Positions 124-47,851 of a stretch of DNA of 47,893 nucleotides are shown here, piece after piece. The notes beneath the pieces were generated by a model, which made no database searches, was not told where the DNA came from, and saw only the letters and a program-made list of their open reading frames with translations. How positions within the stretch are numbered: position 1 is the stretch's first letter; every line of letters begins with the position of its first letter. This DNA is from a virus, in the IMG/VR virus record IMGVR_UViG_3300028556_000014, positions 1-47,893 of that record; one strand, given 5' to 3'. The position numbers and the translations under genes were made by a program.

Positions 124-327
124 GTGATGATCGCGCGGTACCTGCTCCGGCATGGACGGGCTCAGCCGAATGCGCCGGAGGAATCGCGCGCCGAATGGCC
201 CGTTCTGGCCGATCCGCTGGACGTGTTCGACCTTCCTGCCGATGCCTCGCCGAGCGCCGCCGCATCCGAGACGGCGGAGGCCGCGGAGGAGACCCCACAA
301 TTCGGCCTCTTTGGAGATGATCAATGA
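124..327 (+). CDS. small protein ahead of csf2, with C-terminal QFGLF motif
   Basis: A 67-residue ORF starts at GTG 124, with ATG 127 directly behind it, and overlaps the csf2 start by 4 bases. The N-terminal part is basic and the middle is acidic and Ala-rich, probably disordered. The protein ends PQFGLFGDDQ. QFGLF fits the Q-x-x-L-F pattern of bacterial sliding-clamp-binding peptides, although a clamp function is only inferred. It occupies the place where type IV-B operons carry the small subunit Cas11, but no homology to it is evident. The frame is the same as that of the partial ORF that stops at 81. A single gene split by an amber stop is possible but unproven. Confidence 0.45.
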   Translation: MMIARYLLRHGRAQPNAPEESRAEWPVLADPLDVFDLPADASPSAAASETAEAAEETPQFGLFGDDQ

Positions 328-1169
328 CGCGATACCGATTGCTGCTGGAAGCGTTGACGCCAATCGCGCACGGCGACACCCGCACCGGGATCGACAATCC
401 GACCAACATCCGCCTGTTCATGACGCAACCGACGACGGCAAACGGTCGGTTGGTCTATGCGCCACATATAAGCGAGAACGCCTTACGCACTGCAATGCTG
501 CGGCGCCCGCTCGCCGATCACCTGCTGACGACCCTGGGAGTCGATCCCGGCTCTCTCTCGCGCGCCGTGTTGGCGCTCCTCTACTCAGGCGGCAACATGG
601 GGCACGGCCGAACGCCCGGAGACGAAGCAGTGCTCGGCCACATGCTGAAACGGCTCTATCCGTCGCTCGATCTGCTTGGGGGCGCCGTCGATACGTTCAT
701 TATCCCGCGCTCGCGGCTGCGGATGTCCGCATGGCTAGTGGCGCAGGAATACCTCACGCCGATCGAGACACTCTTTCCCGAGCTCGCCGACACTGCACGG
801 ACGATCAGTGCCTACGATCTGATCGGGCAAGAGACCCGCACCCGTGGAACCGGCGAGAAGGCCGGCGGCAATCAAATGCTGTACACCTATCAGGTGCTCG
901 CCGCAGGCGCGCGCATCGTTATCGAATTCACGATCGATTCCTGGACACCGCAGCCGACGGTCGGCGCGTTGGCCCGGGGCGTCGCGGAATGGGACGGCTT
1001 CATCGGCGGTCAGGGCCGGCAAGGGAAGGGCCGCTGCCGGGCCGAATGGATCAGCGCCGCGCCTGCTCTTGAGTCTTATGATCGGCATCTCACGGACAAT
1101 GCGGATGCGTTGCGCGCCGGGATCCTTGACGGCTCACTCGGGACCGGGAAGACGCTATGCGCGGCATGA
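324..1169 (+). CDS. csf2: type IV CRISPR-associated Cas7 (Csf2)
   Basis: This 281-residue protein matches the RAMP-type backbone subunit of type IV effector complexes, which polymerises along the crRNA. It begins with a ferredoxin-like strand (YRLLLEALTPIAHGD), then a 'SENALR' helix start corresponding to the NALRG region of Csf2 proteins. A 'LLYSGGNMG' loop follows, then 'LDLLGGAV' near residue 118 and 'NQMLYTYQVLAAGARI' near residue 188. A glycine-rich C-terminal loop (GGQGRQGKGR) closes the domain. It overlaps the preceding small ORF by 4 bases and csf3 by 13 bases (4 if csf3 starts at 1166), so the genes are probably translationally coupled. The family call rests on these motifs from memory; the gene order supports it strongly. 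Confidence 0.85.
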   Translation: MTRYRLLLEALTPIAHGDTRTGIDNPTNIRLFMTQPTTANGRLVYAPHISENALRTAMLRRPLADHLLTTLGVDPGSLSRAVLALLYSGGNMGHGRTPGDEAVLGHMLKRLYPSLDLLGGAVDTFIIPRSRLRMSAWLVAQEYLTPIETLFPELADTARTISAYDLIGQETRTRGTGEKAGGNQMLYTYQVLAAGARIVIEFTIDSWTPQPTVGALARGVAEWDGFIGGQGRQGKGRCRAEWISAAPALESYDRHLTDNADALRAGILDGSLGTGKTLCAA

Positions 1170-1936
1170 CTTTGCCGACCGACCGCTTCCCAACCGCATG
1201 CCGGGAGCTCGAGTTCGGAGAGACGAAACGGCGGTGCTGGCGCGCTCTATGGCAGCGGTGGCAGAACCTCACATGTGAGCCGCTCCGCGTCGTGGCGCAC
1301 CTCGCGAACGGTTACATCGCGCCGGTAGACGGCGGACTACATCTCGATGGAATCCTGAGCGCTGCCTGCTTTTCGCTCTACCCGTCCGTGATCAATCCGA
1401 CCGCGGACCGCTATATCATTCCGCTCCCTCTGTCCCTCGCCTGGGTATCGCCGATCGGCGACCCGCTATGGCTGGCCACCGAACTGCGGCCAGCGGATGA
1501 GGCAAAGCTGGGCGTGGCATATCTCCATGCCCGATATCCAGTCGACCGCGCCGATCTGGCAGGCCGCCGGGCCGTACTCACATCGGCCGGACGCTACAAA
1601 GACGCCCGCCTGCCGCTTGCGGTGACCGTTGCCGACCGCGTGGAGGGTTGGTGCATCGGCGATGCAGGGCAGGTCAATCGCCTGCTGAACCTGATCGACT
1701 ATATCGGTCGCAAGAGCGCGCACGGATTTGGCAGAGTCATCAAATGGGAGATCGCCGCGGCACCCGATGTCGATCCCGAGACGATCCTCGACCGGAGGGC
1801 GGTGCCGCTCGACTATCTTGCGGAGATCGGTGCTTCAGTCGCAGCAACTCGTTTAGCGCCTCGTCTGGGTTGGACGCCGCCATATTGGCATCCCGCATCG
1901 CAGGGGCCGGTCAGGACCGCGGCATGGACGCACTAA
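1157..1936 (+). CDS. csf3: type IV CRISPR-associated Cas5-like protein (Csf3)
   Basis: This 259-residue RAMP protein resembles Csf3, the Cas5-like subunit that caps the crRNA 5' handle in type IV complexes. Supporting segments are 'PLRVVAHLANGYIAP' followed by 'GGLHLDGILSAAC' (the LHLDGLL motif), 'SAGRYKDARLP', 'VEGWCIGD', and the C-terminal glycine-rich 'IGRKSAHGFGRVIKWEI', the RAMP G-loop. ATG 1157 and ATG 1166 are both possible starts. The latter forms an ATGA overlap with the csf2 stop. The 3' end overlaps the CysH-like gene by 13 bases. Confidence 0.8.
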   Translation: MRGMTLPTDRFPTACRELEFGETKRRCWRALWQRWQNLTCEPLRVVAHLANGYIAPVDGGLHLDGILSAACFSLYPSVINPTADRYIIPLPLSLAWVSPIGDPLWLATELRPADEAKLGVAYLHARYPVDRADLAGRRAVLTSAGRYKDARLPLAVTVADRVEGWCIGDAGQVNRLLNLIDYIGRKSAHGFGRVIKWEIAAAPDVDPETILDRRAVPLDYLAEIGASVAATRLAPRLGWTPPYWHPASQGPVRTAAWTH

Positions 1937-2655
1937 CCCGAGCCGGATTTATCGCTCACGCCCAAAGCGCCGGATACCAACGGCGGCTCGGGACCACAAT
2001 TGCGCTATTGCGCGCTGAGCTCGATGATCGCAGCTACGTCTCATTTTCCGCGGGGAAAGACTCGTCGGTAATCGCCCATCTCTGCCACGCCATCCGATCC
2101 GATATTCCCGTGCTAATGGTTGACCCCGGTTGCCCGACGCATTGGCTGGAAGGAGAAAGACTGGCCTGGACAGCCTACGCGGAGGCGTTCGGCTGGCAAT
2201 TGGTTCTATTCCCGTGGGATAAATGGCGCGAGGTCAGCGCTGCTCGGACAATCGCTGAGCACCGCCGCCTCGCTCACGCCGGAATGTTCGCCGATCTTCA
2301 TGCTTGGGCGGCGGCGCATGGCCTCGACCAACGCGTCATGGGGATGCGATCCGAAGAGTCGCCGCAACGAGCCATTCTTGCGGCAACGCGGGGTCCGTCA
2401 TATGTATTGGCCGATGGAACTCGCGCGCTAAATCCGATCATTGATTGGCGCGTAGCTGACGTCTGGGCCTACATCCTGACGCATCGGCTGCCCTGGCTGA
2501 CAATCTACGACCATCTCGGGCCAGCAGCGCGGAACGGTCTCATCGGCCGCAGCGGCGCAACCCACGGCCGGCTGGCGTGGCTCAAACTGCATTATCCCGA
2601 TGCGTATCTGCTAGCGCGCACGTTGATGCCCATCGAGGCCGCGCAATATGCCTGA
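1924..2655 (+). CDS. CysH-like PP-loop protein of a type IV-B locus
   Basis: This 243-residue protein belongs to the PAPS reductase / PP-loop ATP pyrophosphatase superfamily. The nucleotide-binding loop is SFSAGKDSS at about residues 41-49. It is followed by 'VLMVDPGCPTHW' and 'VMGMRSEESPQR', both typical of CysH-like enzymes. A cysteine tail typical of assimilatory CysH is not visible. CysH-like genes are a hallmark of type IV-B CRISPR loci, where their role is unknown. The start is set at ATG 1924, inside the csf3 coding end, because upstream in-frame sequence is csf3 read out of frame. It overlaps csf1 by 8 bases. Context makes a sulfate-assimilation role unlikely. Confidence 0.85.
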   Translation: MDALTRAGFIAHAQSAGYQRRLGTTIALLRAELDDRSYVSFSAGKDSSVIAHLCHAIRSDIPVLMVDPGCPTHWLEGERLAWTAYAEAFGWQLVLFPWDKWREVSAARTIAEHRRLAHAGMFADLHAWAAAHGLDQRVMGMRSEESPQRAILAATRGPSYVLADGTRALNPIIDWRVADVWAYILTHRLPWLTIYDHLGPAARNGLIGRSGATHGRLAWLKLHYPDAYLLARTLMPIEAAQYA

Positions 2656-3367
2656 GACCGCTTCGGAACTCATCTGGAACGCATTCGGAGCGCGCGCGCC
2701 GGAGGGGAAGACGGGATCGCAATACCGCTTCGAGCCAGCCATGGGCCATTGCGCGATCTGCGGCGCGGCGATCACGGAAGGCGTGCCATTTGCGCCCCGC
2801 CGTGGAGTCGTCGGCATCGACAATCCTACATTCAGCGGCTATGCCGAATATGCCCGCTGGGGCTCGCATGTCTGCCGAGCCTGTGCATGGCTGTGCGGTG
2901 ACCCGAAGCGCACGCATCGGGCGATGCTCGTCGTCGGCGATAGGGGTTGGTGGCCGACGATTGCTCAGGCGATCGATGGACGGCCGAGATGGCGTAACAT
3001 CCTCGGCGAGATCGCGCGCGCCGCGCCGGAAATGCCGATGACCGGCGTGTTGACGACCGATCCCAAACCCCGGCTATGGCCGCGCGCCCAATTGGCAACT
3101 TGTGGCCGCCCCGGGATGTATTTTCACTGCCCCGAGCAGGACATCTCCGGATGGCGCCAGTTCGACCTGCGGACTGTGGCGCAAGCGCTTGCGGCCGTAA
3201 ACGCCGCGATCACCATTGGCGCGACCAAGTCCGCAGCACTGCGCGGGATTTGGACAATGCCGACGCTTGCGGACAGGCATGGAACCAAGATTGTCGATAG
3301 AGTCGAGCGCCGGCTTGCCGAGTATCGCGGCAGCACCGAATTCATGATAGCGGCCGTGGTGGCATAG
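2648..3367 (+). CDS. csf1: type IV CRISPR-associated large subunit (Csf1)
   Basis: The protein has 239 residues and two Cys pairs that form a likely zinc finger: CAIC at about residues 36-39 and CRAC near 76-79, with a further Cys in 'AWLCGD'. This N-terminal treble-clef-like zinc site followed by a compact helical domain is characteristic of Csf1, the reduced Cas8-like subunit of type IV complexes. The length fits the usual 200-250 residues. It is the last csf gene; the next gene starts 3 bases after the stop, so effector and recombination genes are probably on one transcript. Confidence 0.75.
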   Translation: MPETASELIWNAFGARAPEGKTGSQYRFEPAMGHCAICGAAITEGVPFAPRRGVVGIDNPTFSGYAEYARWGSHVCRACAWLCGDPKRTHRAMLVVGDRGWWPTIAQAIDGRPRWRNILGEIARAAPEMPMTGVLTTDPKPRLWPRAQLATCGRPGMYFHCPEQDISGWRQFDLRTVAQALAAVNAAITIGATKSAALRGIWTMPTLADRHGTKIVDRVERRLAEYRGSTEFMIAAVVA

Positions 3368-3370
3368 CTA

Positions 3371-3661
3371 ATGACCGCCCGAAAGGACGCGCTCCATCTT
3401 CCGTCCCGCACGCCGGCATACGTTGATCGCGAGACCGGCGCCGCCGAATTGCGCATCTCTCCAGAGACCTGGGACAAATGGGTTGACGACGGTACGCTGC
3501 CTAAACCCGCCCCCGGCTTCCCTATGTCAACACCCCGTTGGCGCTGGGAAGACGTAGACCGTAAGCTGTCGGGAAGATCGCCGAGCGACGCCGATTCATT
3601 CGTGGCTACAGCAGGGGGATGGCGTGGGGCGCCGAAGGGTCGGAAGCGTGCCGCTGCCTAA
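3371..3661 (+). CDS. excisionase/AlpA-like winged HTH protein
   Basis: This 96-residue basic protein carries a MerR/excisionase-type helix-turn-helix: 'GAAELRISPETWDKWVDDGTLPKP' places a short recognition helix and wing at residues 23-50, followed by 'PRWRWEDVD', the usual end of AlpA-like DNA-binding domains. The C-terminus is Lys/Arg-rich (GRKRAAA). It lies directly upstream of the recombinase gene and overlaps it by 38 bases, the position expected for a recombination directionality factor. An alternative is a transcriptional regulator of the integrase. Confidence 0.7.
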   Translation: MTARKDALHLPSRTPAYVDRETGAAELRISPETWDKWVDDGTLPKPAPGFPMSTPRWRWEDVDRKLSGRSPSDADSFVATAGGWRGAPKGRKRAAA

Positions 3662-4811
3662 AGGTGTCGAGAAGGTCACCGCACGCGGCCGGACCTATTA
3701 CTATTGGAATCCAGGTCGCGGGACGGCGAGGGCAGGGGACCGTATCCCCCTGCCTAATGCCGATACCAACCCAGTAGCGTTTTGGCGTGAAGTCGAGCGT
3801 CGCCGCAATGAGGCGCCAACGATCTACCCGAGCGGCAGCGTCGGCGATCTTATTGTTCGCTACCGGGCATCAAAGGATTTCGGGAAGCTCGCTGACAAGA
3901 CCCAATCCACCTATGGGGTGCATCTTGATCGCTTTTCAGCTCCAGGCGGATGGGGACTAAAGAACGCGCGCCAGCTGACGCCGATGGGCGTGATGGCAGA
4001 GCGCGATGATCAAAAAGATACGCCCGTCATGGCAAACCAGATGCTCGCGGTCGGGCGCTCGCTCTGGGATTGGGCGATCCCACTCGGCTTGGTCGATGCC
4101 AACCCATTCGAGAAGGTAAAACCGCTAGACGTGGCTGACCGCGGCCATGTTCCCTGGCCGGGCTGGCTGGTTGATATGGTTCTCGGCACCGCACCTCCAG
4201 ACCTAACGCGCATGGTCCGACTCGGGCGAATGACATGCCAGCGGGAGAGTGACCTCGTGCGTTTTGGCCCCCAGCATCGCGATCGTAATGGCCTCTGGTG
4301 CCGCCCGCAGAAGACGCGGAAACGCCGCCGTGCGTTCCTGATCCCGCTTGCCACAGTCGATGCCATGGAGTTGGACCGTTGGCCGGGAACCGCCCTCGTT
4401 TTCCGCAATGACCGCTTCAAGGCACCTGTCGAGCGCATCCGAGACGACCTCTACCTCTTTTCGCCGCGCGGCACGGATTACAATCCGGAAAGCCTGCGGT
4501 CTCGCTGGGGTCGCTGGCTGAAGTCTGACAATGGTCGGGAAATCTGCAACGCCTGGCGCAAATGGCTCACCGAATGCGTGACACGCTACGAATGGGAGAT
4601 CGACCCGGAGGATTCCCGCGGCCCGACGATCCACGGCCTCAGAGGCTCAGGCATTCTCCTGCGCATAGCCGGCGGCTACGACACTGACCAGATCGCGAAT
4701 GATATCGGCATGTCGCGGCCGATGGTGGATCATTACATGCGCTTTCGCGATCAGATGGAGGTGGCTGCGGGCGGTCGCAGCCGTCTCAAGCTGGTCGATG
4801 CCGAGGGGTAG
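3624..4811 (+). CDS. int: tyrosine recombinase (phage integrase)
   Basis: This is a 395-residue site-specific recombinase. An N-terminal arm-binding-like region precedes a SAM-like core-binding segment around residues 75-155. In the C-terminal catalytic domain the first active-site Arg lies in the 'GRMTCQRESDLVRF' helix. 'TIHGLRGSG' holds the HxxR box and 'MVDHYMRFRD' supplies the nucleophilic Tyr. GTG 3624 is chosen because an AGGGGG ribosome-binding site lies at 3613-3618; GTG 3648 is an alternative. The gene ends 46 bases before the first of three repeats that look like integrase arm sites, consistent with an adjacent attachment site. Confidence 0.93.
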   Translation: MGRRRVGSVPLPKGVEKVTARGRTYYYWNPGRGTARAGDRIPLPNADTNPVAFWREVERRRNEAPTIYPSGSVGDLIVRYRASKDFGKLADKTQSTYGVHLDRFSAPGGWGLKNARQLTPMGVMAERDDQKDTPVMANQMLAVGRSLWDWAIPLGLVDANPFEKVKPLDVADRGHVPWPGWLVDMVLGTAPPDLTRMVRLGRMTCQRESDLVRFGPQHRDRNGLWCRPQKTRKRRRAFLIPLATVDAMELDRWPGTALVFRNDRFKAPVERIRDDLYLFSPRGTDYNPESLRSRWGRWLKSDNGREICNAWRKWLTECVTRYEWEIDPEDSRGPTIHGLRGSGILLRIAGGYDTDQIANDIGMSRPMVDHYMRFRDQMEVAAGGRSRLKLVDAEG

Positions 4812-7558: not shown

Positions 7559-7657
7559 ATGGCTGCGATTAGCAAACGACGACGCCGGCAGTTGTTCAAT
7601 GCCCAAGGCGGCATGTGCTTCTATTGCCGTTGTGATGGTGGTGCCGATGCCCGATAA
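7559..7657 (+). pseudogene. 32-residue HNH-nuclease-like N-terminal fragment
   Basis: An ATG at 7559 opens a 32-codon frame ending TAA at 7655-7657. A basic helix (ISKRRRRQLFNAQGG) is followed by MCFYCRC, which matches the start of HNH endonucleases (basic helix, then the first zinc CxxC). The His-Asn-His part is absent. It overlaps the next gene by 11 bases, so it may be a translated leader or a truncated remnant. Confidence 0.35.
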
Positions 7658-8096
7658 CCGCCTGCGCCTCGTCGCCGGACCGCCGTTGCGGGCGGTCCTC
7701 GCCGCAACCGGCAACGAATACCCGACCGGCCGGGTCAATGCCGTCGCCGAGCGCTACCTAGCGATGATCGAGGCTGTTCGGCCGGTCTTCGGCCGCCAGG
7801 AATGGCTGGCGATCTTTGACGCGCTCAACGGCGTCGGCCATGATGACTTCCGCGCCGGCGAGGATGCGCCGCGGGTTCCGGCTTGGGCCGGAATCGCGGC
7901 GGAGATCATCGATGCGCGCGGCCTCGGCGAGCACTGGGGTATCGACCAAGCCGCGTTGGCGCGGAAAGTCCATGCTTTGCCGGAGCCGGCGCGCATCGCC
8001 ATCGTCGAGACCGCGCAGCGCTTTTGGGCGCTCTGCGACCTGCCGGACAGCGAGGCACTCCATCTCGCAACCAGCCATCCGGCGACGTGGCCCTAG
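7647..8096 (+). CDS. hypothetical protein upstream of csb1
   Basis: This 149-residue protein starts at ATG 7647 (in-frame ATG 7635 possible). 'NEYPTGRVNAVAERYLAMIEAVRP' suggests a ribbon-helix-helix-like or helical N-terminus. 'FGRQEWLAIFDALNGVG' and an all-helical C-terminal half follow. It ends 18 bases before csb1, preceded by the HNH-like fragment. No CRISPR family recognised; linkage to csb1 is by position only. Confidence 0.55.
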   Translation: MPDNRLRLVAGPPLRAVLAATGNEYPTGRVNAVAERYLAMIEAVRPVFGRQEWLAIFDALNGVGHDDFRAGEDAPRVPAWAGIAAEIIDARGLGEHWGIDQAALARKVHALPEPARIAIVETAQRFWALCDLPDSEALHLATSHPATWP

Positions 8097-8114: not shown

Positions 8115-9269
8115 TTGGACATCGAGGATTTGAGGCGGATCGTCGCCGAGGATGCGGCAATCCGTCAAATCCAGCGGTTGCAACCGATTGGCGGTGCTGG
8201 CGAGAAGATCATGCCGGCTGTTTATGACGGGCATCGGCATGCGATAGAGCATCGCCGCATCGACGGCGAGATTGTGCCTTGCGCAGTACTCGCCGGCGTG
8301 CCGCGGCAGGCGCGCTTGCTGTCGGCCGCCATGCTGAAGGCAATTCGCAAGGGCGTCATCCGCATTGCCTACATAAGCGTCGATTTCTCCGAGTTTAGCG
8401 ATTTCGTCGATCATGGCGAGGTCACGACGCTCGATGCTCCTCATCGCCTGTATGATGCGATTTTCCGCGACAGCGAAACGCTTGACGGCACCCCGTTTCC
8501 CCGTACGGAGCTTTATCAATCGCTCGATGCGGCATCGCCGCGAGATTCGCGCGCTTTGTTTGCGGCGAGTCCAACCGCTCTACTGTTTGGCACATGGAAT
8601 TCGACCGGGCACCGCGGCGGCCGCGGCGGTAAATTCGCTCGGTGTCTCGTTTCCGAGATCATCGCCGTTGGCATAGCGGTCGATGCCAACGGCAAATATG
8701 ACGGCGTGCGGTCAACCGGCCGCATGGACCCTTTGCAAATCCGCAGGGGAGTTCCGATCGTAATTGATGACGATGGCGATTGGCGCATCGGCGACGGCCG
8801 GCGAGGCCAATCCACGCCGGCACAGATCAATCACGGCAACATTCCCCCGATGCTCGTCGGTGGCGGTGTATCGGCCGATCATTGTCGCCGGATTACGGCC
8901 CTCTCTTGCGCCGCTCTCCGCCGCTGCCGGCTGCCGACGCACGATGAGCTCGCTGCTCATGTCATGCTCGCGGCGTTGGGATTGTTCGCGCTGGCAAGCC
9001 AGAAGGACGATGACTATTTGCTGCGCTCGCGCTGTCATCTTGTGCCGGACGGCAATGCGCCGCTCGAAATCGTGCGACGTGATGGTTCGATATTGACTGT
9101 CGAGCTTGATGCTGCGGAGGCCACGCGCCTTGCAGAAGAGGCAATTGCGGCAGCGCGGCAGGCGGGTGTGCCCTGGGGCGACATGCCTTTACGGCTGCGT
9201 CCGCAGGAAAAGCTGACCGAACTGGTACGAAGATCACGGGAGATCGACGTCTCGGACGAAGAATCATGA
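8115..9269 (+). CDS. csb1: type I-G CRISPR-associated Cas7 (Csb1)
   Basis: This 384-residue protein matches the GSU0053/Csb1 RAMP family, the Cas7 backbone of type I-G (formerly I-U) Cascade, over its whole length. The N-terminal 'IGGAGEKIMPAVYD' and 'EHRRIDGE' begin the fold. 'TTLDAPHRLYDAIFRDS' follows at about residue 105. The family signature 'PTALLFGTWNSTGHRGGRGGK' with 'FARCLVSEII' lies at residues 153-187, then 'PAQINHGNIPP', and near the C-terminus 'RSRCHLVP' and 'LRLRPQEKLTELVRRSREI'. Full family length with no visible lesion argues for a functional protein. It overlaps csb2 by 4 bases (ATGA). Confidence 0.9.
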   Translation: MDIEDLRRIVAEDAAIRQIQRLQPIGGAGEKIMPAVYDGHRHAIEHRRIDGEIVPCAVLAGVPRQARLLSAAMLKAIRKGVIRIAYISVDFSEFSDFVDHGEVTTLDAPHRLYDAIFRDSETLDGTPFPRTELYQSLDAASPRDSRALFAASPTALLFGTWNSTGHRGGRGGKFARCLVSEIIAVGIAVDANGKYDGVRSTGRMDPLQIRRGVPIVIDDDGDWRIGDGRRGQSTPAQINHGNIPPMLVGGGVSADHCRRITALSCAALRRCRLPTHDELAAHVMLAALGLFALASQKDDDYLLRSRCHLVPDGNAPLEIVRRDGSILTVELDAAEATRLAEEAIAAARQAGVPWGDMPLRLRPQEKLTELVRRSREIDVSDEES

Positions 9270-9868
9270 CCGACCTGGTCATCGAGGTCCAATTCCTTGT
9301 TGGGGCCGCCTTTCTGGCGCGAACGGATCGTCCAGATCGAATCGAATGGCCACCGCATCCTGATCGACTCTTTAGGGCCATAACTGCGGCGAGAAATCGC
9401 CGGCTCGATGTCCCACGCAGCACATATCGGCGCGAGCAGCATGCGCTCGAATGGCTTGAGCGGCTGCCCACGCCGCGCGTCGCGGCACCGCAAGCCTTTC
9501 TGCGCTCTGCCGTCACCAGCTATGTACCGGTCAATGATATCGGCTGGAATCGGGGATCGCAGCCACGCTTTTATCCAGCCGTAATTCCCGATGACGACAT
9601 GCCGCTGATCTATCTGTGGCGCCCGGCCCCCGGCATTGAGCGGCATGGCACGACCCTGGACATCATGCTTGCCGAGGTTACTTATCTGGGTTCTGCTCAT
9701 TCTCTGGTTGCAGTGCGTCGGCGCACCACTTGTCCGGCAATGCTATTTTGGCAAGGACCGCTACGCGTTCCCTATCCGGGCCGACTGGCCGAACTGGAGC
9801 GAGGCTGGCGGCGAGGATATCGCGTTCTCCCTTCCCGCGTGTTGAGCGATAGCGATGATCACGCCTGA
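9266..9868 (+). CDS. csb2: short Csb2-like protein (Cas5 part only)
   Basis: This 200-residue protein corresponds to the N-terminal half of Csb2 (GSU0054 family), the type I-G subunit that is normally about 450-550 residues and combines Cas5 and Cas6 roles. Recognisable are 'EWPPHPDRLFRAITAA', 'ALEWLERLPTPRV', 'TSYVPVNDIG', 'QPRFYPAVIPDDDM', 'AEVTYLGSAHSLVAV' and 'LRVPYPGRLAELERGWRRGYRV'. The frame ends soon after this last block, where the Cas6-like domain would begin. The following gene is not the missing half. The lost crRNA-processing domain makes this an unusual, reduced form. It overlaps the next gene by 14 bases. Confidence 0.8.
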   Translation: MTDLVIEVQFLVGAAFLARTDRPDRIEWPPHPDRLFRAITAARNRRLDVPRSTYRREQHALEWLERLPTPRVAAPQAFLRSAVTSYVPVNDIGWNRGSQPRFYPAVIPDDDMPLIYLWRPAPGIERHGTTLDIMLAEVTYLGSAHSLVAVRRRTTCPAMLFWQGPLRVPYPGRLAELERGWRRGYRVLPSRVLSDSDDHA

Positions 9869-10904
9869 GCCCGAATTGCGGCGGCGCCGTGGCCGGCCTG
9901 CCGCTATTTCCCCATTAGCCGAATACCGGACATGGCCGCTACGCGCTGATGACGCGCTGCATGCGTTCGCGGCGCTTGGGGGTGCCCTCTGCGGGCTTTA
10001 CGTCAGCACCGATCGCCGCGGCGAGGGTCGAGTGCAATTGCAGCTACATGGAGACATAGATGTTGCGGCCACGGCCGCCGCAGAACGAATGATTGTTCTG
10101 GCCGAGTCGGGCGCCAATGCGGCGCTGGCAGCTAGCCCGTGGGATTTACTGTTGGGGCTGGGGCAGCAACCGGATTTATCGACGCGTACCGCCGAATTGT
10201 GGGCGGGCGCGACGGCGTCATCGATCGCCATGGCGCTCCGCGGCCAATCCACCCTGGAAATGCGCGTATCGCTACGACTCGAGCTGTCGCATCCTTCAGA
10301 TGCACCTGCCGCACGTCGGGCCATTGGCTCGAAGCCAGTACCGCGCTTGTCGTCGCGTGGCCTGAACGCGCTGGCGGCGCTTGCGCTGTACGAATGGCAG
10401 TCGCGCTGGCCGCAAAGCGGCGCGACGGGGCGCGGCGACAACCGTCAGGTCTGGCGTATTACACCAGTCGCCCGGATGACAGGCCAAGAGTGGTTGGGGC
10501 GCCTCGGCGACTGGCCCCGGTGGGCAGAATGCGGCAGCGACGAAGGCATGCGCCACGGCACAATTGATATCTGGCGCCATCGTGTGGCGCACAATGCGCG
10601 CGTACTCTATCTCGCCGACCCGGACCGTATCGTGATCACCGATGAGAACGATCCGACAATGGCGCTCGGGATGAATGCGGCTGCGACAGCCCTGATTGGA
10701 GGGACGATTGATAAGATCGCCTCAGCGTTAGGAGTTTCGGCATCCCTGTTAGAACGTTGGTCCAGAGGCCATGATCTTCCGCCAAGAGATGCGCCGGTCT
10801 GGCGAGATCTTCGAACCATCCTTCACCGGCGCCTGAGCGCCCTCGGTCAAGTGGCGGAAGAATTCGATCGGCTCACGCGCGAAGCGCGGGCGCCAGATGA
10901 TTGA
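9855..10904 (+). CDS. unknown 349-residue protein with C-terminal HTH-like segment
   Basis: The protein follows the Cas5-like gene with a 14-base overlap and occupies the place where a large subunit might be expected. The N-terminus is basic (RRRRGRPA). Residues 30-200 are Ala/Leu-rich and mixed alpha/beta. Residues about 280-310 (TIDKIASALGVSASLLERWSRG) look like a helix-turn-helix. It lacks Csx17/Cas8 motifs and the Csb2 C-terminal blocks that I can recognise. Possibilities are a divergent Cas8-like subunit, a DNA-binding regulator or an unrelated gene; I cannot decide. Confidence 0.6.
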   Translation: MITPEPELRRRRGRPAAISPLAEYRTWPLRADDALHAFAALGGALCGLYVSTDRRGEGRVQLQLHGDIDVAATAAAERMIVLAESGANAALAASPWDLLLGLGQQPDLSTRTAELWAGATASSIAMALRGQSTLEMRVSLRLELSHPSDAPAARRAIGSKPVPRLSSRGLNALAALALYEWQSRWPQSGATGRGDNRQVWRITPVARMTGQEWLGRLGDWPRWAECGSDEGMRHGTIDIWRHRVAHNARVLYLADPDRIVITDENDPTMALGMNAAATALIGGTIDKIASALGVSASLLERWSRGHDLPPRDAPVWRDLRTILHRRLSALGQVAEEFDRLTREARAPDD

Positions 10905-10910
10905 TACCCC

Positions 10911-11969
10911 GTGGCGTTGAGCATCCCGTCGCCCCGTTTGCGGCTGGAGGAATGGGGCCGTGCAATTCCCGGCATCTGGCATGCGGTCGAGGGCGAACGT
11001 GCTTCCTGGCGCCAGGATATTGCGGGCTGGCCGGCACCGATCTTCCTGCCGCTGGAACATGCCGGGCGCGCGACCTTGGCCGCGATCGCGGCGTCCGGCC
11101 AGCGACCGCCTTCCGGACCGGCCGAACTCAGTCCCGCCGCCTGTGTGACGCAATGCCTCGCGACCTGGCGCATGACACAGGGGATTTATCGGATCGACCC
11201 CACGCTCTACGAGGCGCTGATCGCGACGCCGGTAACCGGCGATATCCCGTCCGATGTGTTGCTCTATCTGCCGGAATGGTGCGTCTATATCGAAACGCCA
11301 GGGATGATCGTTCCGACCGCCGATGGTGCCGATATCCCCGTCTATGGGCTGTGGTACTGGCTCGACATCACCCGAGATCGGCCAACAATGATCCTCTCCG
11401 TCGGGATCGACATTGGAAGACGACCGCCTTTCCCCGTGCAGCATGTTCCATTGGTAGGTACGCTCGAACACGCGCTCGACGAGACCGTACGCGAATGGGA
11501 GAGCGCGCTCATCCGCGGCAACGCCAAGCGGCCGCCTCCACCAGCCTACCGCGAGGCGGCGGCCCGATTCTTGCCGCCGGCGCTGTCGCTCATCCTCTAT
11601 CTGTGCAGCCGGAGCGTCGAGATTGCCGGTGCCGCTGGCGGACCAGCCAACCCGACGCCTCAAAAGACACGGCGCGGCATGCGAATATTTCCGGCCAATG
11701 GTCCCCGCCAATGGGAGGTTGGCGTGCGGCTGGGCGCCGCATTGCGCACCGCCTATGCGCGCGAGAGCGAAGGCGGCAATGGACACTCGGTCTATAATCT
11801 CCGGCCGCACATCCGAGGCGCGCACTGGCATACCTACCTGCTCGGTCCCCGCGCGCCGCGCGAGAACGCGGCGCCGCAGCGCCGCGAGCTGCGCTGGCTG
11901 CCCCCAATCCCCGTCGCGATCGAGGATTACGATGCACTGCCGACCGTGATCCGGCCGGTACGGCCGTAA
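10911..11969 (+). CDS. AcrVA2-family-like protein
   Basis: This 352-residue protein starts at GTG 10911. Its C-terminal block 'NLRPHIRGAHWHTYLLGP' followed by 'RELRWLPPIPV' is the strongest conserved region of the AcrVA2-like family. That family was first found as a Cas12a inhibitor in Moraxella and is widespread on plasmids and phages. Other blocks are 'ATWRMTQGIYRID', 'LLYLPEWCVYIET' near residue 120 and 'LILYLCSRSVEI' near residue 230. Most family members have no tested anti-CRISPR activity, so the function is inferred. It is the last gene of the operon containing csb1/csb2 and is followed by a terminator. Confidence 0.6.
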   Translation: MALSIPSPRLRLEEWGRAIPGIWHAVEGERASWRQDIAGWPAPIFLPLEHAGRATLAAIAASGQRPPSGPAELSPAACVTQCLATWRMTQGIYRIDPTLYEALIATPVTGDIPSDVLLYLPEWCVYIETPGMIVPTADGADIPVYGLWYWLDITRDRPTMILSVGIDIGRRPPFPVQHVPLVGTLEHALDETVREWESALIRGNAKRPPPPAYREAAARFLPPALSLILYLCSRSVEIAGAAGGPANPTPQKTRRGMRIFPANGPRQWEVGVRLGAALRTAYARESEGGNGHSVYNLRPHIRGAHWHTYLLGPRAPRENAAPQRRELRWLPPIPVAIEDYDALPTVIRPVRP

Positions 11970-11971
11970 AA

Positions 11972-12005
11972 AAAGGCCGGCCCCTCTTTCGAGAAGCCGG
12001 CCTTT
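11972..12005 (+). terminator. terminator after accessory operon
   Basis: A perfect 10-bp stem AAAGGCCGGC / GCCGGCCTTT (11972-11981 with 11996-12005) begins 3 bases after the AcrVA2-like stop. The stem base is A/T on both sides, so it could act in either direction. Confidence 0.75.
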
Positions 12006-12022
12006 ATCGCCGCGGTGCTAGC

Positions 12023-12041
12023 GAGCCGGGTGAGCCGGCTC
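12023..12041. other. small hairpin in intergenic region
   Basis: GAGCCGG and CCGGCTC (7 bp, 5-base loop) lie in the 194-base gap between the terminator and the toxin-like gene. It has no T-run. Apart from this hairpin and the promoter/operator below, nothing was seen in the gap. Confidence 0.3.
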
Positions 12042-12163
12042 CCGACGGCAATTAGACACGCGGTGGCCAGCGCCAGGCGCGAGGTGCTGTCGTCGCGGTA
12101 AGCTGGCGCGACGCGAGCAGATGGTGCGACAAAGAAGGGCTGAACTTCAGTCTATTTTATCTG

Positions 12164-36019: not shown

Positions 36020-36681
36020 TCGCGGGCATGCGGCTCTGCCGCATAGATCGAATGCCAGTCTTCGACCTGCGCCCGCGCTGGGAAGCCTTTCGCCATGAGG
36101 CCCGCCGGAACGTCGCGGGTGACGACGGCCGCCATCGCGATCGTGGCGCCATCGCCAATGGTGACACCGGGCCGCAACCGCGCGCCGGCGCCGATCACGA
36201 CATCCGAGCCGATCCGGCAGGGCGTGACGCCTTTCCACCGATAACCGCGCGGGCGGTCATCGTTGACCGCGAGGACCTGGACCGAGACGAAGCACCGATC
36301 GCCGACGATCGTTCCGCCCGAGATGTGTGTATCGTCCATCAATTGGCAGTCGTCGCCAACTACAGCATCATAGCCGATCTTGACACCACAGCCGATGACG
36401 CAGCGCTTGCCGATCCTCGCGCCCTCGCGGATATGGGCGTAGGGGCAGACCTGCGTATCCTCGCCAATTTCCGCACCGGCATAGACGATGGCATAGGGGC
36501 CAACGACAACGCCCGGGGCAAGCGTGACGGGCGGGAGATTGTTGTCGATCGGCTTGGCGAAGGCGTGGCCACGCATCGGCTCGAACCAGACAAGCGCCGT
36601 CGCATGGACGCGGGCGCCGTTATCGAGGTTGAACCATCGCCAAGCGTCATTGCGCAGGACTTGCAATTGATCGTCCATCAT
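35998..36681 (-). CDS. left-handed beta-helix (hexapeptide) acyltransferase
   Basis: A 227-residue protein with hexapeptide repeats from about residue 55 to 190: 'GVVVGPYAIVYAGAEIGEDTQVCPYAHIREGARIGKRCVIGCGVKIGYDAVVGDDC', then 'VVIGAGARLRPGVTIGDGATIAMAAVVTRDVPAGL', typical of LbH O- or N-acyltransferases acting on sugars. The active-site His cannot be set with certainty. It overlaps both neighbours. It probably modifies a nucleotide-sugar or glycan. Confidence 0.85.
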   Translation of the reverse strand: MMDDQLQVLRNDAWRWFNLDNGARVHATALVWFEPMRGHAFAKPIDNNLPPVTLAPGVVVGPYAIVYAGAEIGEDTQVCPYAHIREGARIGKRCVIGCGVKIGYDAVVGDDCQLMDDTHISGGTIVGDRCFVSVQVLAVNDDRPRGYRWKGVTPCRIGSDVVIGAGARLRPGVTIGDGATIAMAAVVTRDVPAGLMAKGFPARAQVEDWHSIYAAEPHAREWKASIL

Positions 36682-37373
36682 ATCCTCAACGCCTCGGTCA
36701 AGCTCGCAAAGCGAAAATCGGTGATCGCGGATTGCGGAGTCGCGTTAACCACCTCGACGTTCAGACGCTTAAACACGCCAGCCATACCGCGCCACGCCGG
36801 GAGATAGCGGTCGCGAAAGGCCGCCAAGTCATGCTGGTAATAGTCATCATGACCGTGCGTGCGGCCGTTGACGGCCTGCGCCTCAAACCCGATCAGCACG
36901 ATCCGCCTGGCACCCATGACGGCCGCTAGGCAGGCCGCGCTATGGCCGCTTGATGCGCCGACGTGATCGGGGAAGGCTCCCAGGCGTTCGACCAGGGCGG
37001 TGAAATCGATACGCTTTACCGCATCGCCCAGCCGGGCCTTTGCGTTCCGGTTGCTGGTGATGATCGGCCCCGGCCAGCCGTGGGCCAATTCCGGCCGGTT
37101 TTCGTTCCAGGAATTGTCGGTGAAATAGAGCGGGTCATTGGCCGTCGCAATCGGGCGCACCTTCCGGCACCCGCTGTTGATCGCAATGAGCCGATGACCA
37201 CGCAGCACGTCGAGATCAAGATCGGCGAGGCTTGGGCCGCCACCGATCAGCACGACCGTCAGTCCCTCGAACGACCGATCAGGCGCCCAGAACGGAACCG
37301 GCGTCGGTGCGCCGTCGATCACGACCTGGCGCGGCCCCACGTAGCGGATACCGCGGCCGTCGCCGGCTATCAC
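36678..37373 (-). CDS. MptE/DUF115-like protein
   Basis: A 231-residue protein. 'GLTVVLIGGGPSLADLDLDVLRGHRLIAINSG' is the nucleotide-binding start of the DUF115/MAF-like family, related to pterin pyrophosphokinase MptE and to flagellin-modifying MAF proteins. 'HVGASSGHSAACLAAVMGARRIVLIGFEA' is the second conserved block. In a phage late operon it may act on a sugar nucleotide with its two neighbours; no substrate can be named. Confidence 0.6.
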   Translation of the reverse strand: MIAGDGRGIRYVGPRQVVIDGAPTPVPFWAPDRSFEGLTVVLIGGGPSLADLDLDVLRGHRLIAINSGCRKVRPIATANDPLYFTDNSWNENRPELAHGWPGPIITSNRNAKARLGDAVKRIDFTALVERLGAFPDHVGASSGHSAACLAAVMGARRIVLIGFEAQAVNGRTHGHDDYYQHDLAAFRDRYLPAWRGMAGVFKRLNVEVVNATPQSAITDFRFASLTEALRI

Positions 37374-46145: not shown

Positions 46146-47303
46146 TCAATCAGTCTTTCGACCCAGCAATAGTCCGGTTCTCTCTGGCTTGCGGGCGCTT
46201 GGTGACCCCGCCGGAGCGCAGAACGCAAAGCTCGCGCTGACGCGCCGTGCAGATCGCTGGCGTTGATGCTTTCCAAGACCGCCACGTTTGGCTCCTGGCT
46301 TTGTACTCCCTGCATTCCCGACGCCATATCGTAACATCCTCCATCGGGGAGACGCGGCCTTCTGCGCTATGATTGCGGGATGCGATGGCGTCGAGTGAAA
46401 GCGCCATCCGCGCTCCCACAGGTACATTCCCAACCAGCCGGCCAGCATGCCGCCGATACCGAGGCCCTGATATTCGGGAAGAACCACCGTCCGATGCTCA
46501 GTCCAGATGTTGCGAGCAATCGGGTGCGGAAACGGAATCGCGGAACAGAATGCAACACATTCGCCGCCGATAAAGCCGCCGATGCAAACGGCCGTGTTGT
46601 GCAACGATGCACTCAGATAGTGATGGTGGCTAAAGCGCGGCCAGACGTTACGGCTGACGCTGCGGATTTCAACGGCGATCTCGGGTCTTCGTTGAACCGA
46701 CCTCCATTCGAATGCCGCAAGATGAGGTTCGTACACCCAATCTGGTTGCAGCCATTCGATGATGTCGTAATGACAGGACACGGCTACAAACTGCCGCTTC
46801 GTTCGTCGAATCGTCTTCTGCATGCAATTCGATGCGATTTTCGCGACCTGGCGATCCACGACCGAAGTGAACTCGTCGATTACCACAAGACCGGCTGTCT
46901 CGGCCATCGCGCGTGCCATTGTCACACGAAACTGCTCGCCGTTGCTCAGCACATGAAAAGGTCGAAGCCAATTTGGCACCGAGCCGAAGCCGACCGCGTT
47001 CAGCAAGCCAGAGATTTCCTTGATGCCGCATCCGGCCGGAAACCCGTCGATGATGCTGTGATCACCCGACCACTCGAAGCCCGAAACCACCGCGTCGCCG
47101 AAGCACTCACGCGCTACGGACGATTTACCGGCGCCAGAAGGACCAACGATCAGACCGACGCTCCATTCCCGCTCATCGAGCGGAAGATCAATCATCATCT
47201 CTACCCGGCTTTTCTCGGCCGGCGGTATATCGAACATGCCCGCGATCTGCGCGACTCGCGGCGTCTCAACTATTATGCTTTCCCGGACGATACGAGTCTT
47301 CAT
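46146..47303 (-). CDS. ABC-type ATPase fused to a Mom-like GNAT domain
   Basis: A 385-residue protein. Residues 45-195 are a soluble ABC-type ATPase: Walker A 'GPSGAGKSS', a degenerate signature 'LSNGEQFR', Walker B 'LVVIDEFTSVVD' and a switch His in 'VAVSCHYDI'. No membrane segments. The second half is a GNAT domain with acyl-CoA-loop 'LPEYQGLGIGG' and 'THSTPSHPAIIAQKAASPRWRML'-like residues, the latter like phage Mu Mom, which makes a modified adenine. The C-terminal 'RRVSASFAFCAPAG' suits the end of that family. It likely modifies phage DNA bases. Confidence 0.7.
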   Translation of the reverse strand: MKTRIVRESIIVETPRVAQIAGMFDIPPAEKSRVEMMIDLPLDEREWSVGLIVGPSGAGKSSVARECFGDAVVSGFEWSGDHSIIDGFPAGCGIKEISGLLNAVGFGSVPNWLRPFHVLSNGEQFRVTMARAMAETAGLVVIDEFTSVVDRQVAKIASNCMQKTIRRTKRQFVAVSCHYDIIEWLQPDWVYEPHLAAFEWRSVQRRPEIAVEIRSVSRNVWPRFSHHHYLSASLHNTAVCIGGFIGGECVAFCSAIPFPHPIARNIWTEHRTVVLPEYQGLGIGGMLAGWLGMYLWERGWRFHSTPSHPAIIAQKAASPRWRMLRYGVGNAGSTKPGAKRGGLGKHQRQRSARRVSASFAFCAPAGSPSARKPERTGLLLGRKTD

Positions 47304-47851
47304 GCGATTGAAGCCTTGACCTTCAGGCCCTCAGCCTGCATCCGCTGTATCAGCTCCACTTGATGATCTTCATCGCGGCATTCAACAATGACCGCCCATG
47401 TCTCGGCAGGCGTGACCGCACCAGCATCGCCGCCGACACCGAGGCCCTTGCCAAGAATATCGTCGAACGAGACGATCATATTAGCGCCGAGCTGTTCCAG
47501 GTCCGCGACCTCAAGCTCCAGCATCGCGGCATCCCATCCGGCATCAAGCGCCAGTTTATTATCCGCAAGCACATAGGCTCGCTTCTGTACCTCGGTCCAG
47601 CCGCGGGCCACCATGACGGGAATTTCTGCCAGGCCCAGATGCTGCGCCGCCATTACCCGTCCATGGCCCGCGATGATGCTGCCAGCCTCGTCGACCAGAA
47701 CCGGCGTCGTCCATCCCCATTCCAAAATACTGGCCGCAATGTGTGCGACCTGTTTATCGCTATGGGTCCTAGCGTTTCTCGCGTAAGGCATAAGGGTCGC
47801 GACAGGCCGCCGCTCAATCCGGTCAGCCGGCCATGATGGCTGTTCGCTCAA
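47300..47851 (-). CDS. ParB/sulfiredoxin-fold protein
   Basis: A 183-residue protein with the ParB N-terminal nuclease-like pattern 'LMPYARNARTHSDKQVAHIAASILEWGWTTPVLVDEAGSIIAGHGRVMAAQHLGLAEIPVMVARGWTEVQKRAYVLADNKLALDAGWD'. 'GHGR' is the conserved CTP/ATP-binding loop. There is no helix-turn-helix or long dimer region typical of plasmid ParB. In phages such proteins sit beside methyltransferase or DNA-modification genes. It overlaps the ATPase-GNAT gene by 4 bases. Confidence 0.8.
   Translation of the reverse strand: MSEQPSWPADRIERRPVATLMPYARNARTHSDKQVAHIAASILEWGWTTPVLVDEAGSIIAGHGRVMAAQHLGLAEIPVMVARGWTEVQKRAYVLADNKLALDAGWDAAMLELEVADLEQLGANMIVSFDDILGKGLGVGGDAGAVTPAETWAVIVECRDEDHQVELIQRMQAEGLKVKASIA

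Follow-up and report, generated by a model that had tools for sequence, protein, structure and literature searches.

In the type I-G system of T. sulfidiphilus, Csb2 and Cas7 co-assemble on the crRNA, and the Cas6 half of Csb2 cleaves the pre-crRNA and grips the 3′ hairpin (PMC9638904). With the Cas6 domain alone in place of Csb2 no complex was formed, so that the Cas5-like half matters for assembly; the role of this half was termed elusive in the type I-G structural study (PMC9638904). A phage-borne Cas5 homologue, AcrIB3 (38% identical), is without an 18-residue hook and displaces the native Cas5 in type I-B Cascade, according to the part of PMC13131331 in which Katz et al. 2024 is cited. 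The apparent failure of viruses to recruit Cas proteins broadly as inhibitors was called an enigma in a 2024 review (PMC11656645).

Source record and comparison loci

The window, i.e. the whole stretch of DNA analysed here, is one linear metagenomic contig of 47,893 bp and perhaps a fragment, so that every missing cas gene or array is a statement on these 47.9 kb only. It carries the viral hallmark genes for portal protein, terminase, major capsid protein, tail protein and endolysin, and an integrase gene (3624–4811). The closest named phage by terminase was Komagataeibacter phage phiKM1 (59%), from which an alphaproteobacterial host may be guessed. On the minus strand, 36678–37373, situated amid structural genes, matched a PHROG annotated as alpha-2,3-sialyltransferase, and 46146–47851 encoded a protein that gave ATPase-like and GNAT matches and, at the extreme end of the record, a DNA methyltransferase.

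Separate from the csb genes, a type IV (IV-B-like) module with the gene order csf2-csf3-cysH-csf1 was located at 324–3367, in which no cas11, csf5 or DinG was noticed. Its near relative lies on a related viral contig of 90.9 kb (L132/L138), with csf genes 62–69% identical to those of the window and none of csb1, csb2 or orf3 found. Co-travelling of the csb block and the type IV module was rejected, as L132 has the module without csb.

Type I-G loci for comparison were collected from a genome scan, plasmids, one viral contig and a survey of Acidobacteriota (the phylum of locus L002), where Csb2 was carried by 31 of 297 genomes. A 16.8-kb contig classed as viral (IMGVR_UViG_3300042271_000498; L029/L131) encodes an integrase together with type I-G csb1, full-length csb2 and cas3.

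Csb1

The csb1 (cas7g) gene (8115–9269, plus strand) starts with TTG, preceded by GGGAGAG, and encodes a full-length protein of 384 aa, which was assigned using Pfam PF09617 (GSU0053; E = 8.4e-35), PADLOC Cas7g (7e-33) and TIGR02570 (2.2e-9; 37.4 bits, just under the cut-off of 38). The homologues compared were about 360–440 aa long at 30–40% identity. Csb1 had been described as intact over its known length; this holds for the length, but the protein is not fully canonical, as its signature motif is gone. Residues 58–70 (8286–8324, plus strand) read VLAGVPRQARLLS in place of LLDSVQSQANRxE, with AGVPRQARLLS at residues 60–70, where homologues have the signature DSxQSQANRxE.

In alignment columns with at least 80% conservation, 35 of 43 residues were kept, and the losses were clustered, five of the eight falling within residues 60–70 (P = 0.001). 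The signature was retained in nearly all other Csb1 rows, even in rows missing 13–16 conserved positions, and the only other row missing most of it was a 148-aa fragment (L035). A compensated frameshift at the motif was rejected, since the other frames of this stretch do not read DSxQSQANR. Judging by its place near the start of the RAMP fold, the signature is suspected to serve crRNA-backbone or Cas7–Cas7 contacts. In the Csb1 tree, the phage protein was placed beside an Acidobacteriota clade without strong support, on an end branch of 1.1 compared with a median of 0.53.

Csb2N

The second gene, csb2N (9266–9868, plus strand; 200 aa), encodes the Cas5-like half of Csb2 only. TIGR02165 matched residues 4–181 with E = 3.2e-33 on profile positions 2–192 of 492, in agreement with the original prediction, in which Csb2 was said to end after its Cas5-like block, without the Cas6-like half. 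Intact homologues from about 27 type I-G loci comprise 457–571 aa, i.e. 250–370 residues more, in which the Cas6 part is held. Alignment placed the end of csb2N approximately 25 residues past the GRLxxL motif, which is the final conserved block in this Cas5-like half, and 22 of 24 residues in columns with at least 80% conservation were kept. The structure model reached a pLDDT of 49 from an alignment of 3 sequences only, and Foldseek was uninformative.

The proposed coupling of csb1 and csb2 by ATGA is real (9266–9269), and csb1, csb2N and orf3 each scored best by codon use in their own frame, compared within their own strand, with a weak preference for csb2. Two observations had been named beforehand as speaking against a true half-length Csb2. 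The first, a frameshift in a full-length gene, disagrees with frames that are intact and coupled and with the conserved Cas5 residues; the second, a Cas6 part directly downstream in another frame, was absent in a six-frame profile search. Short Csb2 proteins among the comparison loci were contig-edge or C-terminal fragments, plus one truncated Streptomyces gene. On a plasmid of Streptomyces sp. NBC_00826 (L006, 8148–8423), a 91-aa csb2 stump adjoins csb1, with no cas3 annotated nearby, in what appears to be decay. The search for other phages encoding such a short Csb2 yielded only the single copy among the matches listed in pattern-seeded collection scans, from which distant copies may have escaped.

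It is distinctly unlikely that the genes are the remnant of a type I-G operon that the phage acquired, that was truncated in recent times and that is now decaying or non-functional. The single copy and a truncated HNH remnant upstream (see below) would fit such a history, and decay of csb2 does occur, as the Streptomyces stump illustrates. Against this, the three overlapping frames are intact and have the best codon score in frame (weakly so for csb2), csb2N ends just past the last conserved block with its conserved residues kept, no downstream Cas6 remnant was found in any frame, and the block lies inside an operon with an acr homologue whose terminator was retained.

Missing type I-G components

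Custom profiles for the Cas6 half, Cas3, Cas4-Cas1 and Cas8g were built from the type I-G loci, where each recovered its own family; none of them matched in a six-frame search of the window. The window was likewise free of a CRISPR array or mini-array, exact repeat pairs of at least 14 nt at 48–95 nt spacing were confined to a GCC run at 19.4 kb, whole repeats from the type I-G loci gave no real match, and no Rfam match was obtained. Within the 47.9 kb, these profile and repeat searches bore out the earlier statement that Cas3, Cas8/Csx17, Cas1/4 and an array are lacking. As the missing Cas6 half, Cas3, Cas8g, Cas4-Cas1 and array are not in the window, neither of the two observations named above was made. 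An RNA anti-CRISPR in the form of a solitary type I-G repeat was also considered and rejected: with 3 mismatches or fewer allowed, the end of the repeat (GGCCTCATTGAAGC) was found 6 times with 5.7 expected, which corresponds to chance.

In the sense of membership, the csb pair is not a type I-G system, because the Cas6 part, Cas8g, Cas3, Cas4-Cas1 and array were all tested and absent, and Cas7g alone was present. Nor does the pair belong to type IV-B: it matches type I-G families only, shows no Csf1, Csf2, Csf3 or Cas11 signature, and BLASTP detected no similarity of its proteins to the csf proteins encoded in the window. The genes do share two features with an inhibitor of the AcrIB3 kind, being cas homologues on a virus record without the rest of their system, with the Cas6 half, which crRNA maturation requires, and the Csb1 signature, which may also be needed, gone and the remainder conserved (22/24 and 35/43).

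Predicted operon and cargo slot

By gene order and spacing, csb1, csb2N, orf3 and acrVA2L form a predicted operon closed by a strong terminator. The two-gene unit of the original prediction thus persists as the csb1/csb2 pair, but the unit is larger and continues into orf3 and an AcrVA2-family gene. AcrVA2 is active in the down-regulation of Cas12a. The acrVA2L gene (10911–11969, plus strand; 352 aa) starts six bases past orf3 and belongs to the AcrVA2 family (phrog_6160, 2.8e-42); its product matched AcrVA2 (PDB 7ci1) in phmmer with E = 5.6e-13 over the stretches 82–154 and 255–318. Its relatives include a 71% identical homologue in L132 and a gene annotated as AcrVA2 in Shewanella phage Y11. 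After acrVA2L follows the predicted intrinsic terminator (11972–12005, plus strand; AAAGGCCGGC...GCCGGCCTTT, 10-bp stem), and the region 11960–12060 folded with −47.4 kcal/mol (z = −3.2). AcrVA2-like relatives were also very frequent on plasmids (683 records), most of them conjugative and from Escherichia, Salmonella and Acinetobacter, among others; those among the matches listed are mostly annotated as hypothetical.

The left flank of the cassette is o151 (7641–8096, plus strand), which encodes a small protein with homologues in related phages (56% identical in L132/L138, 28–31% in L154 and L164). In every case an AcrVA2-like gene follows the homologue immediately or nearly so: in L132/L138 the two are parted only by a small complete HNH-like gene, and in the more distant phages L154 and L164 they adjoin directly. 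In the window, a 31-residue remnant (KRRRRQLFNAQGGMCFYCRC) that resembles the beginning of an HNH protein was observed at 7559–7654, cut just before o151.

Since the flanking genes are adjacent or near-adjacent in related phages without the block, csb1, csb2N and orf3 most likely entered this older gene pair together as one cargo block, either by insertion between its two members or by a swap. The lower GC3 of csb1 (0.66), csb2N (0.59) and orf3 (0.65), compared with 0.82 and 0.75 for the flanking genes, agrees with a cargo insertion. The whole block was represented by one example among the matches listed in the collections searched, the scans being pattern-seeded.

Orf3

The third gene, orf3 (9855–10904, plus strand), shares its first 14 bp with the end of csb2N, stop codon included, and encodes an orphan protein of 349 aa. 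Searches of Pfam, NCBIfam and PHROGs assigned it to no family and gave only weak helix-turn-helix (HTH) matches, and no homologue was found in the viral contigs, phages or plasmids searched; two Acidobacteriota matches looked spurious on re-run. A possible HTH at C-terminal residues of about 280–318 (10692–10808, plus strand) was indicated by weak matches to several HTH models, the best being obtained with a C-terminal fragment (Pfam, E = 0.012; PADLOC mad1, 2.7e-4).

Together with the loss of the Csb1 signature, this possible HTH would suit Cas-derived proteins that have taken on a non-CRISPR role, for instance RNA-binding regulators of the phage operon with Orf3 as DNA-binding partner. Such a role is considered improbable, even more so than decay, given that the rest of Csb1 and the Cas5 half are highly conserved and that the neighbourhood is one of counter-defence.

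Orf3 was also considered as the missing Cas8g, because by eye LRADDALHAFAALGG resembles GLxxxxPLGFLAALG, and this was rejected, with no support from profile or shuffle tests: against the Cas8g N-terminal block, 1219 of 3000 shuffles scored at least as high as the real orf3. The single-sequence model of Orf3 was of no use (pLDDT 36); the rejection holds at the level of sequence, and a Cas8g-like fold may still be present. These results bear on the main rival explanation, in which a Csb1 filament capped by the Cas5 half would make up a reduced, array-less ribonucleoprotein carrying host crRNAs or other small RNAs. Orf3 would then be a new partner or large subunit, and the particle would act without Cas3, in competition between elements like that of type IV-B or in gene silencing. 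Type IV-B, also without Cas6 and array, assembles on heterogeneous RNA (PMC7937560), and a type IV module of such kind is present on the same record; the conserved residues were kept (35/43 in Csb1, 22/24 in csb2N), and orf3 is linked to the csb1-csb2N pair. The explanation is nonetheless judged somewhat unlikely, because the Csb1 signature motif is gone, Orf3 has no sequence similarity to Cas8g, array, mini-array and type I-G-like repeat are all absent from the window, and the type IV module occurs without the csb block in L132. That Csb1, Cas5-only Csb2 and Orf3 form an array-less, Cas6-less Class 1 complex parallel to type IV-B, used by the phage as an RNA-loaded weapon against host or rivals, is unlikely.

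Proposed mode of action

The reading tentatively favoured, at a probability of roughly 0.45, is that the cassette serves counter-defence, with defective Cas7 and Cas5 subunits that would poison the type I-G Cascade of the host. It is preferred because a homologue of AcrVA2 is in the same operon and because AcrIB3 offers a precedent. The well-conserved Cas5-only Csb2, the absence of all other type I-G components and of an array from the window, and the insertion of the block with its lower GC3 count in its favour as well. The block csb1-csb2N-orf3 would be phage cargo with its origin in a type I-G operon of bacteria and co-expressed with the AcrVA2-family anti-CRISPR homologue. The Cas5-like half and the signature-less Csb1 would enter, or compete for, the assembling host Cascade; from the type I-G assembly data (PMC9638904), a free Cas5 half is expected to compete at an assembly surface without contributing a grip on the hairpin. 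Poisoned complexes, with at least one abnormal Cas7 among their subunits, would have no Cas6 half to process pre-crRNA or hold the 3′ hairpin, and on this proposal no interference would result. Orf3, with its possible HTH, may be an operon regulator like the Aca proteins, or a third partner.

Of the two functions put forward in the original prediction, blocking of the host system is supported by the surroundings of the genes, with an AcrVA2 homologue in the operon and a cargo slot, and by the localized loss of the signature in Csb1, whereas a minimal complex using host crRNAs is not favoured, in view of the absence of Cas6, array and type I-G-like repeat from the window. Some points weigh against the counter-defence reading. 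AcrIB3 needs one subunit, and Cas7 and Cas5 parts together may also fit a self-contained complex. The reading presumes a type I-G system in the host of this phage, the block is represented by one example among the matches listed, and the AcrVA2 neighbour is circumstantial evidence only, given how widespread its homologues are among plasmids and phages.

A Cas5-like half that is naturally split from its Cas6 half and kept beside a motif-altered Cas7 offers a ready-made probe of the role of the Cas5 half. Should inhibition be shown, type I-G would, to our knowledge, have its first anti-CRISPR, and this Acr would be made up of two Cascade subunits.

Comparison with known systems

With type I-G Cascade (Csb1/Cas7g and Csb2/Cas5-6g), the phage genes share a full-length Csb1, the Cas5-like half and the canonical gene order, and the start-stop overlap of csb1 and csb2 recurs at other type I-G loci (L029, L004); they differ from it in lacking the Cas6 half, Cas8g, Cas3, adaptation genes, array and Csb1 signature. 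The last gene of the predicted operon is a homologue of AcrVA2 (PDB 7ci1/7ci2), of which the csb genes are neighbours and not the same kind of thing. As a working analogy, type IV-B (csf1, cas11, csf2, csf3, cysH) is likewise a Cas7/Cas5 complex of mobile elements without Cas6, nuclease or array, but the csb genes match type I-G and not Csf families, and the real type IV genes of the phage form a module of their own. AcrIB3 and AcrIB4, as far as Katz et al. 2024 are reported in PMC13131331, resemble the cassette in that a solitary, phage-borne homologue of the Cascade Cas5 is missing one functional element; the present pair is of type I-G instead of I-B, combines a Cas7 with a Cas5 subunit rather than using a single one, and its inhibitory action is a proposal.
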